Positions 6,529 through 10,845 of a DNA stretch of 64,000 nucleotides are shown here, in pieces. The notes under the pieces were generated by a model. The model was given only the letters and a program-made list of their open reading frames with translations. It did not search any database and was not told the origin of the DNA. Source of the DNA: an uncultured Desulfomicrobiaceae bacterium (lineage in GTDB: Bacteria; Desulfobacterota; Desulfovibrionia; Desulfovibrionales; Desulfomicrobiaceae). The position numbers and the translations under genes are program-made. Location: contig CALKRN010000016.1 in assembly GCA_937989665.1 (NCBI GenBank), positions 1 to 64,000 of the forward strand, read 5' to 3'. How positions within the stretch are numbered: the first letter of the stretch is position 1; each line of letters opens with the position of its first letter.

Positions 6529-6642
6529 CTAGAGGCCGTGGGGATAATGGGGCAAGCTTGGTGGGGATTCCTACGTCTTCCTTTTTCATAAGGAACCCCC
6601 CTTCTAAAGGCCGTGGGGGATAATTGGGTAAGCTTGGGGAGG
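6529..6642. repeat. Imperfect ~38-bp direct repeat upstream of the PilZ-ParA block
   Basis: Two copies, at 6529-6566 and 6604-6642, share the core GGCCGTGGGG-ATAAT-GGG-AAGCTTGG with small differences and lie 75 bp apart. Each copy contains GATAAT, a fair -10 hexamer, but I do not find a matching -35 hexamer at standard spacing. The second copy ends in the ribosome site of the gene at 6647. The 190-bp gap between rlmH and that gene contains nothing else I recognise. Possible readings are duplicated promoter elements, an operator, or a parS-like site for the neighbouring ParA-type protein. Confidence 0.6.
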
Positions 6643-6646
6643 AGGT

Positions 6647-7078
6647 ATGGAGGATACTATGGTGGCCGCGTTAGTGGGAGAGGGTGGAACCGAAGGGCAG
6701 GAATTGCTCCTGTGGGAAGACCAGGCAGCGGTGGGGGCGGTGCGCAGCGCCTACCGCGTGCCCGTGGCCCCTGGTGAGGGATGGCTGCGTGTGGGGGAGC
6801 AAGACGTCCCGGTGCTTGATGTGGCGGCTTCGGGGCTAGGGGTCGCGGTGGAGAGCGTGGACGGTTGGGAGCCGGGGACGAGGAAAGAAGGCGCCCAGCT
6901 TACGTTGGCTGGTGAGTCGTTTGTCCTTGACCTGGAAGTGGTCCACGTCTCTGCGGATGTGGAGGACGCCCTGCGCTGTGGCTTGACGGTACGCCATGCC
7001 CCGCAAGGCTATGGGGACTTTGTGGAAAACTTTGTGGCGCAGCGTAAGACCCAGCTCCTTCACCCGGAGAAGATATGA
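6647..7078 (+). CDS. PilZ-like protein, first gene of the ParA block
   Basis: 143 residues with no signal peptide or membrane segment. The centre reads LDVAASGLGVAVESV, similar to the (D/N)xSxxG strand of PilZ domains that bind cyclic di-GMP, and AYRVPV upstream could hold one arginine of the RxxxR half. The match is degenerate, so c-di-GMP binding is doubtful. The C-terminus (FVENFVAQRKTQLL) is a charged helix. Two ATGs (6647 and 6659) both have plausible ribosome sites. The stop overlaps the next start (ATGA), so this gene, the ribbon-helix-helix gene and the ParA gene form one coupled unit. Confidence 0.6.
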   Translation: MEDTMVAALVGEGGTEGQELLLWEDQAAVGAVRSAYRVPVAPGEGWLRVGEQDVPVLDVAASGLGVAVESVDGWEPGTRKEGAQLTLAGESFVLDLEVVHVSADVEDALRCGLTVRHAPQGYGDFVENFVAQRKTQLLHPEKI

Positions 7079-7434
7079 GCCCCCGCGACATCCTCGGCGA
7101 GCTTTTTGCCAACGACAGTGGCGAAGGCCTGCAGGGATTTGAAGAACTCCATCGCCTGATCCAGCAATGTGCGGCCCCCAAGCAGGCGGTGCCCTCTGGG
7201 GTCAAGCGGCAGGTGAGTCACCTGACTCGGACCCGTAAAACGACCCACTATTTGCGTGCCGAGGTCTATGAGCGCCTCGAGACAACGCATCTGGCCTTGC
7301 GCAAACTCCTTCCGCAGGGGAGCAAGGTGAGTAAATCGCGTCTCGTCAATATGGCGTTGGAGCAATTTTTGGAAGAAGTTCGACGCTCGGGCGATGCCGG
7401 GGCAGTTGCCCGTCTTTTGGAGGACAAATCATGA
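7075..7434 (+). CDS. Ribbon-helix-helix-like partner of ParA
   Basis: 119 residues. The C-terminal half (KTTHYLRAEVYERL ... KVSKSRLVNMALEQFLEEV) has the strand-helix-helix layout of ribbon-helix-helix DNA-binding proteins such as ParG, VirC2 and related partition adaptors. The N-terminal 50 residues are acidic and probably flexible, as in adaptors that stimulate ParA ATPases. It is coupled by ATGA to genes on both sides. I infer a DNA-bound or protein-bound partner of the ParA encoded next; no target site is evident apart from the direct repeat at 6529-6642. Confidence 0.6.
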   Translation: MSPRDILGELFANDSGEGLQGFEELHRLIQQCAAPKQAVPSGVKRQVSHLTRTRKTTHYLRAEVYERLETTHLALRKLLPQGSKVSKSRLVNMALEQFLEEVRRSGDAGAVARLLEDKS

Positions 7435-8366
7435 CAACAGAACCCGTGCGCGTGGTCTGCCCGCGCTGTGGCAAGGAACACCGGCTGGATGCATCCAAGA
7501 TTCCGGCTGGAGTCAAAATGGCCCAATGCCGGGCCTGCGGCCATCGGTTTCCCCTGGCCGAGGCAGGAACTTCAGGGCTCGAGACTCCCCCCCGGCCAGT
7601 ACCTCGGCGCATCGGCGTGTGCCTTAGCAAGGGCGGGGTAGGCAAAACCACGACAGCGGTCCATCTGGCCGCTGGACTTGCCCTGGCAGGCGCTCGCGTG
7701 CTCTTGGTGGATACCGACACCCAAGGTCAAGACGCCTACTCCCTGGGGCTCAAACCCAAGGCCGGACTCACTGAGCTCGTTACCGGTGAGCTGGGGGTGG
7801 CGGAGACCGTGGTCAAGGCACGGGAAAACCTGTGGCTCCTTGCGGGTGGCCGTGCCCTGGCCGGGGTAAAACGCCTCATCGATCGCAAGGATTTTGGCGG
7901 CGAGCTCACCCTGGCCGAGGCCTTGGAGCCAGTGGAGTCGGCCTACGAGTATGTCGTGGTGGATACCTCGCCAGGCTGGGATCCGCTGACGGTCAATGTC
8001 CTGTTTTATGTCACCGAGGTCCTTACTCCGGTCAGCCTCGAGGTCATGACCCTGCAGGGGTTGGTGGAATTTTTGAAGAGCTTGAGTGCCATCCAAAAGT
8101 ACCGCAGCGAGGTGGCCCTCAAGTACATCCTTCCCACCTTCTTCGACAAACGCGTTAAGAATCCGGAGACCCTCCTCAACCGCCTCCAGGAGCTTTACGG
8201 CGATCTCGTCTGTGAGCCCATCCGCTACAATGTGCGCCTCTCCGAGTGCCCGGCGTATGGCAAAACAGTCTATGAGTACGCCCCTGGATCCCACGGCGCT
8301 CAGGACTACCGCGCCCTGGTGCGCAAAGTGACCGGCAACCCCAAACTCTTTTCCATGGAGAGGTAG
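7431..8366 (+). CDS. ParA-family ATPase with N-terminal zinc ribbon
   Basis: 311 residues. Residues 10-36 form an MJ0042-type zinc ribbon (C10, C13, C33, C36), fused through a short proline-rich linker to a ParA/MinD-type ATPase. The deviant Walker A is KGGVGKTT (67-74), followed by LLVDTDTQGQ. Later VVVDTSPGWDPL and SLEVMTLQGLVEF match ParA. Such ATPases oscillate or form gradients on DNA or membrane to position cargo. Chromosomal ParA normally pairs with ParB, but here the neighbours are a ribbon-helix-helix protein and a PilZ-like protein, so an orphan positioning system (as for PomZ or ParC) is more likely than chromosome segregation. Cargo unknown. Confidence 0.85.
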   Translation: MTTEPVRVVCPRCGKEHRLDASKIPAGVKMAQCRACGHRFPLAEAGTSGLETPPRPVPRRIGVCLSKGGVGKTTTAVHLAAGLALAGARVLLVDTDTQGQDAYSLGLKPKAGLTELVTGELGVAETVVKARENLWLLAGGRALAGVKRLIDRKDFGGELTLAEALEPVESAYEYVVVDTSPGWDPLTVNVLFYVTEVLTPVSLEVMTLQGLVEFLKSLSAIQKYRSEVALKYILPTFFDKRVKNPETLLNRLQELYGDLVCEPIRYNVRLSECPAYGKTVYEYAPGSHGAQDYRALVRKVTGNPKLFSMER

Positions 8367-8372
8367 CCGGCG

Positions 8373-9575
8373 GTGTCTGGGCCAGCCCTCGTGGTGCAGC
8401 TGGCGCGCTTTGGCGATATCCTCCAAACGGTGCGGCTCATGGCGAGTCTTGGGCCCAAGGCGGTGCTCCTGGTGGATGAGGGGCTGACCACCTTGGCCCG
8501 TCTCGCCTATCCCCAGGTCCAGGTCCGGGGATTGCCGGTGCACGGCAAAGTAGGGGGGCAGTGGCAACGCTGGCAGGAGACCATTGCCGGGCTGCAAACC
8601 CTGAATCCAGAGGCAGTCTATCTGCTCAACTATTCGGGATTGTCCGCCGCCCTGGCGGCAGCCTTTGCAGAGGATCGACACCGGGGCTATGCGGTTTGGG
8701 GCGGCAGTTTGCGGGTGCCGCCGTGGCTTGCCCTGGCCATCCGCTGGGCTGCGCGGCGACGCCAAGCAGGACTCAATCTTGTGGACGTCTGGGGGCTGCT
8801 GGCCCCTCGGCCAACGGTACCTGCAGCTGTCCATCCGCCGGCCCGCGCCCAAGGTTCAATACTGGGGGTGGTACTGGCTGGCCAGAATCCACGACGCTCC
8901 CTGCCCGTGCCGGTGCTAGCGGCGTGGATGGGGGCCGCCCTCCACCGCTTGGGTGGCACAACGGCGGTGCTGCTCGGTGCCCCTGGCCAAGAACGGCTCG
9001 CTGCTGAACTCCTGGCTGCGTTGCCGCCAGCCCTAGCTCGATCCACCCGCAACCTCGTGGGACGGACCTCGTGGCAAGAACTTTGGGAGACGGTGGCCGG
9101 GTGCGGTCTCGTCCTCTCGCCAGACACCGGCGTGGCGCATCTGGCGGCGCACGTGGGGGTGCCGGTGCTGGGCGCTTATCTGGCCTCGGCCTGGGTGCAT
9201 GAGACCGGCCCATACGGAGAAGGCCATGCCGTACTGCAGACTGTCCTTCCCTGTGCGCCGTGTTTGGAGACTGCACCCTGTACCACCCCCGGGGCATGTG
9301 TCCGGCCGCTGGCGCATCCTGCGACGCTGCGCTGGATCGCCCGAGAGGAAGGAGAGTTGCCAGAAGGGGTTGTGGCTTTGAAGAGCCAACTTGACGCCCT
9401 GGGGACGTGGTATGTGCCCGTGGCTGGAGAAGACCCCACGGCGGTTCTTCGGGCGAGCTTTCGTTCCCAAGTGGCTGCGCTGTGGGGGATGGCCGCGCCG
9501 CAAAGCGGTGCCGTGGAGTGGATGGAAGAACGGGACTGGATGCTGCCAGGCCGAAGGAGTGAGGAATATGGTTGA
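8373..9575 (+). CDS. Glycosyltransferase family 9 (heptosyltransferase-like)
   Basis: 400 residues from a GTG start 6 nt after the ParA stop. The N-terminus (ALVVQLARFGDILQT) and the C-terminal nucleotide-sugar segment SPDTGVAHLAAHVGVPVLG are hallmarks of the ADP-heptose:LPS heptosyltransferase family. Four cysteines cluster near residues 290-310 (CAPC ... C ... C), a feature of some family-9 enzymes in sulfate reducers. The C-terminal ~70 residues extend beyond the GT-B fold. It probably acts on cell-surface glycan (LPS or flagellar glycan) in the cytoplasm. It overlaps the next glycosyltransferase by 8 nt, so the two likely work in one pathway. Confidence 0.85.
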   Translation: MSGPALVVQLARFGDILQTVRLMASLGPKAVLLVDEGLTTLARLAYPQVQVRGLPVHGKVGGQWQRWQETIAGLQTLNPEAVYLLNYSGLSAALAAAFAEDRHRGYAVWGGSLRVPPWLALAIRWAARRRQAGLNLVDVWGLLAPRPTVPAAVHPPARAQGSILGVVLAGQNPRRSLPVPVLAAWMGAALHRLGGTTAVLLGAPGQERLAAELLAALPPALARSTRNLVGRTSWQELWETVAGCGLVLSPDTGVAHLAAHVGVPVLGAYLASAWVHETGPYGEGHAVLQTVLPCAPCLETAPCTTPGACVRPLAHPATLRWIAREEGELPEGVVALKSQLDALGTWYVPVAGEDPTAVLRASFRSQVAALWGMAAPQSGAVEWMEERDWMLPGRRSEEYG

Positions 9576-10845
9576 GGTGGGCGTGCGGCGGATTCTCGTT
9601 GTTTTACCGTTGTATGGAGGCTCGTTGCCTGTTGGTCGTAGCTGCGCCCGCGCGTTGGCGGCCTTGGGGCATGTGGTAGAGACCTTCGATGCCCCCCTCC
9701 TGTATCCTGCATTCCAGAATTTGCGCCACCTGCGCATTTCCCAAGCTGCGCTCGATGCCCTGGAGAACGGCTATCTCCAACTCGTCTCCCAGGCCATTTT
9801 GGCTCAAGTGGAACGCTTTGCCCCCCATCTTGTGCTCGCCGTGGCCCAAGCCCCGCTCTCCCGCCAGGCCCTGCGCGAGCTCTCCCGCCAAGGCATCCCC
9901 ACCGCCATGTGGTTTGTGGAAGACTATGCTGTGTTTACCTACTGGCAGGCCTTTGCCCCTGCCTACGATTTTTTCTTTACCATCCAGCGGGAGCCTTTTC
10001 TTTCGCGATTGGCCGCCATAGGCCAACAGCAGGCCTGGTATCTGCCGCTGGCAGCAGACCCTGCGGTCCATCGGCCGCTGGAACTCACCCCGGCGGAGCG
10101 CCGGATCTATGGAAGTGATGTGGCCTTCGTCGGGGCAGGATATCCCAATCGCCGCTTGGCCTTCCGGGCCTTTGCCGGGATGGATCTCCGCATTTGGGGC
10201 AATGACTGGGATGGCGAAGAAATCCTCGCCCCCTACCTGCAGCGGGGTGGGGCGCGCATCGACACCGAGGAGATCGTCAAGATTTTCTGTGCCACGCGGG
10301 TGAACCTCAACCTCCACTCCAGCGTGCGGCCCGACGTCACGGTGGCCGGTGGAGACTTCGTCAACCCCCGAACCTTTGAAATTGCAGCCTGCGGTGCCTT
10401 TCAAGTGGTGGATCAGCGTGCCTTGTTGCCAGAACTCTTTGCCGAAGAAGAACTGGCCGTGGTGGACAGCCTCGAGGCCATGGTGGCTGCCACCCACTAT
10501 TTTCTCCGCCACGAGGACGAACGCCAAGCCATGGCCAAGCGAGCACGGCAGCGGGTCCTGGCCGAGCATACCTACACCCGACGCATGGAGACCCTACTGC
10601 ACCTCGTAGGCAAGAGGCTTGGGTGGCGGGCAGAGACCCCGGCTATGGGGCATCTCGACCCAGAGCTTGCCGCGGCGGTGTCCGACCTTGCCAGACGCCT
10701 TGGTTTGCGCCAGGACGCCTCCTTCGACGACGTGGTGGCCGCGGTACGTGCCCGCCAGGGAACGTTGGACCCCATGGAAACCACAGTGCTTTTTCTCGAT
10801 GAATGGCGCCGGCAGTATGGCCGCGGCGCCCCGGCAGCAGCATAA
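9568..10845 (+). CDS. CgeB-like glycosyltransferase (GT-B, C-terminal GT1-4 fold)
   Basis: 425 residues. I start it at the ATG at 9568, with GAAGGAGTGAGGA before it, overlapping the preceding gene by 8 nt. The N-terminus (RILVVLPLYGGSLPVG) is a Rossmann strand-loop. The middle has MWFVEDYAVF, DVAFVGAGYPNRR and NLNLHSSVRPD, and the segment VNPRTFEIAACGAFQVVD contains the conserved nucleotide-sugar-binding E of CgeB/DUF3880-type transferases. A helical C-terminal ~70 residues follows. Proteins of this kind modify spore coats or flagellins in other bacteria; here I infer surface or flagellar glycan modification. The donor and acceptor are unknown. Confidence 0.82.
   Translation: MVEVGVRRILVVLPLYGGSLPVGRSCARALAALGHVVETFDAPLLYPAFQNLRHLRISQAALDALENGYLQLVSQAILAQVERFAPHLVLAVAQAPLSRQALRELSRQGIPTAMWFVEDYAVFTYWQAFAPAYDFFFTIQREPFLSRLAAIGQQQAWYLPLAADPAVHRPLELTPAERRIYGSDVAFVGAGYPNRRLAFRAFAGMDLRIWGNDWDGEEILAPYLQRGGARIDTEEIVKIFCATRVNLNLHSSVRPDVTVAGGDFVNPRTFEIAACGAFQVVDQRALLPELFAEEELAVVDSLEAMVAATHYFLRHEDERQAMAKRARQRVLAEHTYTRRMETLLHLVGKRLGWRAETPAMGHLDPELAAAVSDLARRLGLRQDASFDDVVAAVRARQGTLDPMETTVLFLDEWRRQYGRGAPAAA

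Follow-up and report, generated by a model that had tools for sequence, protein, structure and literature searches.

Three adjacent genes of an uncultured Desulfomicrobiaceae bacterium, encoding in order a PilZ-domain protein, a probable ribbon-helix-helix (RHH) protein, and a ParA ATPase with an N-terminal zinc ribbon, form a conserved unit. On balance, we favor the view that this trio is a nucleoid-based ParA positioning module, in which the RHH protein would act as the partner of ParA and c-di-GMP would provide an input. ParA-type systems set the placement of surface machines and of DNA, and many "orphan" ParAs have no assigned partner. The trio offers candidates for both the partner and the signal input, within a sizeable group of sulfate reducers in which cell polarity has received little study. 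The genes lie in a 64,000-nucleotide stretch of DNA (contig CALKRN010000016.1), the whole of which is referred to here as the window (Table 1). All three are open reading frames of the + strand, joined by two ATGA overlaps just as an initial annotation, made from the sequence alone, had claimed.

Table 1. Coordinates of the trio, its motifs and the adjoining features in the window.
Feature	Position	Strand	Remarks
Leader carrying GGGGATAAT	6529-6643	+	imperfect direct duplication of ~39 bp: 6529-6567 and 6604-6643
Ribosome-binding site of gene 1	6640-6646	+	AGGAGGT, strong
Gene 1	6647-7078	+	PilZ-domain protein, 143 aa; probable c-di-GMP receptor
PilZ motif RxxxR (R33-SAY-R37)	6743-6757	+	both Arg invariant in family alignments
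Second PilZ motif, DVAASG in the window copy	6818-6835	+	Ser replaced by Ala relative to [DN]xSxxG
ATGA overlaps joining genes 1/2 and 2/3	7075-7078 and 7431-7434	+	
Gene 2	7075-7434	+	probable ribbon-helix-helix protein, 119 aa; proposed ParA partner
N-terminal peptide RDILGELF	7084-7107	+	proposed ParA-activating motif; Asp5 invariant or nearly so
RHH beta-strand KTTHYL	7237-7254	+	K55, T57 and Y59 at expected DNA-reading positions
SKS opening helix B	7330-7338	+	expected phosphate contact in RHH proteins
Gene 3	7431-8366	+	ParA ATPase with N-terminal MJ0042-type zinc ribbon, 311 aa
Zinc ribbon (C10, C13, C33, C36)	7449-7553	+	four Cys invariant in 22 orthologues
Deviant Walker A SKGGVGKTTT	7626-7655	+	signature Lys67 and Lys72, both invariant
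Glycosyltransferase genes downstream of the trio	8373-9575 and 9568-10845		

Profile searches of 61 related genomes located the ParA in 23 and the RHH protein in the same 23, the two genes always lying next to each other, no more than about 0.5 kb apart; both are absent from the remaining 38. Within a sample of 297 genomes from the phylum, in which a ParA was counted as high-scoring at E below 1e-140, both proteins are present in the identical 9 genomes. The order PilZ-RHH-ParA is retained in about 28 loci across the Desulfobacterota, with flanks that change from one to another. Such conservation is far beyond chance, and the trio is a real unit. The initial annotation had named co-occurrence of the three genes both as the check on its reading, an orphan-type ParA positioning module, and as the point at which that reading could fail; the conserved co-occurrence supports it. 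A species-wide contig scan, which detects close relatives only, returned 29 best relatives, all labelled as Deltaproteobacteria or Desulfobacterota-type lineages. Coevolution judged from distance matrices (mirror-tree) is weak, with only the RHH-ParA pair above the permutation null, and that marginally.

The ATPase encoded by gene 3 matches Pfam AAA_31 (2.5e-31) and Zn_ribbon_4 (3.5e-11, residues 7-41), which bears out the earlier description of a ParA with an N-terminal zinc ribbon. In 22 orthologues, K67 (signature), K72 (Walker), D96 (catalytic), and D178 (Walker B) are invariant; D96 corresponds to the Asp that is mutated in Soj structure 2bek. The orthologues are 61-87% identical to the window copy, and the closest solved relatives are Soj proteins (profile against 1wcv, 1.1e-38). 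R241, which aligns with the Arg of the Soj DGRT stretch and presumably corresponds to its DNA-binding position, is R in 21 of the 22 and K in the remaining one, and a second basic residue, at position 269, is R in just 15. The assignment of non-specific DNA binding to particular Soj residues follows the literature, including PMC7229837. With its catalytic and main DNA-binding residues intact, gene 3 should encode an active, nucleoid-binding ATPase.

The trio ParA thus belongs to the same family as the ParA of Soj/Spo0J ParABS systems and shares these residues with it. In contrast to those systems, the trio contains no ParB_N gene. The sole ParB_N gene of the source genome (86% complete) is located at C15:23517 and is paired with a neighboring Soj gene (C15:24385). 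This canonical Soj/Spo0J pair rules out the trio ParA as the chromosomal Soj, and it also answers the objection, raised with the initial annotation, that this ParA might segregate the chromosome together with a distant ParB. A ParA-like match near pilT on contig C11 was considered as a pilus ParA and rejected, since it is a protein of the Mrp/ApbC type.

In RHH proteins such as CopG, alternate residues of the beta-strand read the bases and the start of helix B touches the DNA backbone. The C-terminal half of gene 2 displays this pattern in nearly all family members: a strand [KR]xTxY[LI], helix A, and a helix B that opens with S[KR]S, with the DNA-facing residues [KR]xTxY and SKS forming the most conserved part of the domain. 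Pfam RHH_3 matches are weak and come from 3 of 16 members. The structural model places helices at residues 62-78 and 87-108, after the predicted strand. A fold search returned TraM RHH as its best match (prob 0.77, E 1.3) and also TTHA0139, both weak, and none under E = 1; a search of solved structures with the RHH profile gave no significant match. From the motif pattern, together with the weak Pfam and fold matches, gene 2 is probably an RHH protein, as had been suggested.

Outside the RHH domain, the main conserved stretch of gene 2 is an N-terminal [KR]D[IV]L..[LI][LF]. Short N-terminal peptides have been reported as the means by which partners act on ParA-type ATPases (PMC10241942, PMC12462528), so a small protein that carries a conserved peptide of this kind would be a natural partner for the ParA beside it. 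The initial annotation was right that the trio lacks a ParB, but the ParB-like role is most plausibly filled by gene 2, and the ParA is an orphan only in the sense of being without a ParB_N protein.

Gene 1 alone has no Pfam match, and PHROGs and NCBIfam held nothing useful for either gene 1 or gene 2. PilZ (PF07238) is nevertheless matched by 17 of 18 aligned members of the gene 1 family (best 7.5e-10). An AlphaFold2 model (pLDDT 81, with low confidence confined to the first 31 residues) matches the PilZ structures MrkH (2.4e-5), YcgR, MotI, and others; a search of solved structures with the PilZ profile found no significant match. The family matches and the model together assign gene 1 a PilZ fold. 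The term "degenerate," applied to this protein at the outset, fits mainly the window copy, and there only the second motif, but not the whole family. The congener G002 (DISRWG), Desulfomicrobium-type members (DLSMYG), and others carry this motif in full, and its Ser position is Gly or Ala in some other members. The loss of the motif serine from the window copy (DVAASG) counts against the reading proposed here. The source genome has 14 GGDEF genes, so the ligand c-di-GMP is likely to be made. Gene 1 is a probable c-di-GMP receptor, and the c-di-GMP input that had been proposed is plausible, given these GGDEF genes and the canonical PilZ motifs of many relatives.

A module of this kind would work as follows. 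ATP would drive dimerization of ParA, which would then bind the nucleoid. An RHH dimer would hold the cargo end, and its N-terminal peptide would dock on the ParA dimer, triggering ATP hydrolysis and release. The PilZ protein would relay the level of c-di-GMP to the RHH/ParA pair, tuning how tightly the partner is engaged. The outcome would be a moving or pole-seeking ParA gradient that is switched by the motile-to-sessile signal. The basis for this scheme lies in sequence: the trio and its co-inheritance, the catalytic and main DNA-binding residues of ParA, the N-terminal peptide and DNA-facing residues of the RHH protein, and the PilZ fold with its RxxxR motif. From these we infer the partnership, the stimulation of the ATPase, and the effect of c-di-GMP.

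The middle gene varies among loci. It has decayed independently (truncated or missing) in L042, L044, and L050, where PilZ and ParA persist, and the gap separating PilZ from ParA in L034 and L046 is barely large enough to contain it. The RHH protein is therefore not indispensable everywhere. In L031:2834-4114, an inserted AAA+ domain of the sigma-54-activator type (E 2.8e-46) separates the N-terminal peptide from the RHH domain. In L048:3268-5181, the RHH protein is replaced by one that, on our reading of its domains, is composed of an N-terminal peptide followed by receiver, DUF4388-like, and Roadblock-like regions; its N-terminus, RRSVLESLL, resembles the N-terminal peptide of gene 2, and the gene order is PilZ, replacement protein, a second Roadblock-like protein, and ParA. 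The middle gene can thus be lost from the system or exchanged for another. The natural swaps (RHH; RHH with AAA+; receiver with a Roadblock-like region) constitute a ready-made test of the N-terminal peptide as an interchangeable ParA plug.

The cargo is the least certain step of the proposed mechanism. Most trio flanks are housekeeping genes: rlmH and a topoisomerase gene in Desulfomicrobium-type genomes, and a tRNA synthetase gene or other housekeeping genes elsewhere. Consequently, the gene neighborhood does not fix the cargo. The initial annotation had pointed to two glycosyltransferase genes that follow the trio, and to a surface or envelope apparatus as cargo. These genes are indeed present in the window, but they follow the trio only within its own genus (e.g. 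L091). They were excluded from the unit because the flanks differ beyond the genus, and the idea of an envelope cargo is no longer supported by them. Sporadic neighbors in other genomes give weaker evidence that the cargo is a surface or polarity apparatus. In L037:5995-12883, L045:2082-8679, and L047:5995-11926, a ParA without PilZ or RHH is followed by genes for a winged-helix-like protein, a zinc-ribbon/HAMP protein, a receiver-DUF4388 protein, a Roadblock protein, and an MglA-like GTPase. Desulfurivibrio-type genomes have PAS, CheY, and CheC genes upstream of the trio, and an MshEN-T2SSE-cNMP ATPase gene is near it in the loci L083 and L085 of this type. In G003, a PilT-type ATPase gene adjoins the trio in convergent orientation. 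PilT-type ATPases are encoded in every one of the 23 trio genomes, and the trio is absent from all 9 genomes that lack such ATPases, an association that is weak since it is confounded by phylogeny, most of the 9 coming from one family. A search of the window's own 86%-complete genome for MglA, made with a single query and no positive control, gave no match.

These sporadic MglA/Roadblock, CheY/CheC, and PilT/MshEN-ATPase neighbors lead us to lean, tentatively, toward a type IV pilus, polarity, or chemosensory apparatus as cargo, in preference to a DNA site. Somewhat more speculatively, a ParA system with an RHH partner and its own c-di-GMP receptor might set polarity or pilus placement directly by second messenger, and some Desulfobulbaceae-type genomes might wire the same ParA to Roadblock/MglA-type polarity proteins instead. 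Known cargo-positioning systems provide parallels. Like the trio, PpfA-TlpT, ParC-ParP, McdA-McdB, and PomZ comprise a second ParA besides Soj, with a non-ParB partner that carries an N-terminal motif (PMC9178275, PMC10241942). The trio differs from them in that its proposed partner is a probable RHH protein, a probable c-di-GMP receptor is a fixed member, and the neighborhood does not define a cargo. In kind, the trio belongs with the ParA positioning systems; what is new in it is the zinc ribbon together with the constant presence of PilZ. Among the ParA systems described in the literature consulted for comparison, none includes a receptor for a second messenger as a constant third component, and a search of the open literature found no PilZ-RHH-ParA operon described.

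The leader of gene 1, which the initial annotation included by placing its start at 6529, contains an imperfect direct duplication whose two copies are spaced 75-76 bp apart. No further copies are found elsewhere in the window, and the duplication is not present upstream of the trio in two congeners; it is private to the source genome. Being confined to one locus in the window and missing in the congeners, it was ruled out as a family-wide operator or centromere for the RHH protein. Across 22 trio upstream regions, no operator or repeat common to the family was detected, the shared k-mers being A/T-rich runs only.

The best-surviving alternative, which we consider possible but rather unlikely, is that the cargo is DNA and not a surface apparatus: the RHH protein would bind a centromere-like or dispersed chromosomal site in the manner of ParG, omega, and SegB, ParA would move or space the DNA, and PilZ would allow modulation by c-di-GMP. 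The strong conservation of the DNA-reading strand and of SKS within the RHH domain fits this view, and an RHH partner for ParA has plasmid and archaeal precedents (PMC7308502, PMC9178275). ParF-ParG (TP228), delta-omega (pSM19035), and archaeal SegAB likewise pair a ParA with a small RHH protein, which is expected to affect the ATPase through its N-terminal tail. Unlike these, however, the trio is chromosomal, its RHH gene is upstream of parA, its ParA carries a zinc ribbon, a PilZ protein is the third gene, and no centromere repeats were found. A further parallel is provided by Myxococcus xanthus, in which CdbA (an RHH protein that binds c-di-GMP) and CdbS (a PilZ protein) tie c-di-GMP to nucleoid organization or segregation (PMC7156744, PMC10313047). 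In contrast to the trio, CdbA and CdbS are encoded by unlinked genes and have no ParA partner; CdbA has 67 aa, and CdbA/B have been reported from Myxococcales only (PMC7156744, PMC10313047). DNA as cargo is also disfavored because no operator or repeat is conserved in the upstream regions, the leader duplication being unshared, by the presence of a canonical Soj/ParB pair in the genome, and by the several loci that keep ParA with the RHH protein replaced or lost.

It is improbable that the trio moves nothing and is instead a transcriptional switch of the FleQ-FleN type, in which the RHH protein would regulate surface-lifestyle genes, ParA would be an antiactivator or corepressor, and PilZ would give c-di-GMP information. 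FleQ-FleN likewise combines a ParA-like ATPase, a DNA-binding regulator, and c-di-GMP. In addition, the placement of the AAA+ domain in L031, between N-terminal peptide and RHH domain, recalls that in an enhancer-binding protein, the relatives of the trio ParA include FleN-type ATPases, and, as a weak pointer, ParA is beside a winged-helix-like gene in three loci. However, this AAA+ domain occurs in one locus only and is absent from the window protein, its sigma-54 contact loop is GAFPGA rather than GAFTGA, and a shared operator was not found upstream of the trio. The trio also differs from FleQ-FleN in having an RHH instead of an HTH regulator, PilZ as sensor, and a Soj-like ParA, which resembles nucleoid-binding Soj more than FleN and retains R241. 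Finally, it is very improbable that the trio is a chromosomal remnant of a plasmid- or element-type partition system with PilZ as a chance neighbor: the encoding of a small, probable RHH protein with ParA is the type Ib (ParF-ParG-like) layout and the distribution within the order is patchy, but no conserved centromere repeats were found beside the operon, none of 72,556 plasmid records contains a relative of the RHH protein, ParA is strongly conserved, PilZ occupies the same place in about 28 loci, and most flanks are housekeeping genes, such as the rlmH that adjoins the trio in several genomes.

The winged-helix-like protein that follows ParA in L037, L045, and L047 has KDISSVI or EDISSLI near its N-terminus; it may be the ParA partner there, although the motif is very short. 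Receiver-PilZ proteins are encoded downstream of the trio in the Desulfurivibrio-type loci L027 and L051. The T2SSE ATPase of L083:5036-7264 has an MshEN N-terminus and a C-terminal cyclic-nucleotide-binding domain. Genome G312 has a second zinc-ribbon ParA (L088:9309-10235, E 1.6e-99), located beside a CheY gene and with no RHH or PilZ match. Finally, L089:9799-11947 and L090:9230-10561 represent a distant ParA subfamily with KGGVAK for KGGVGK and a long C-terminal tail; the product of the gene next to the L089 ParA carries a P-loop ATPase domain and begins RRQLPDIMGEAL, reminiscent of the N-terminal peptide of the trio.
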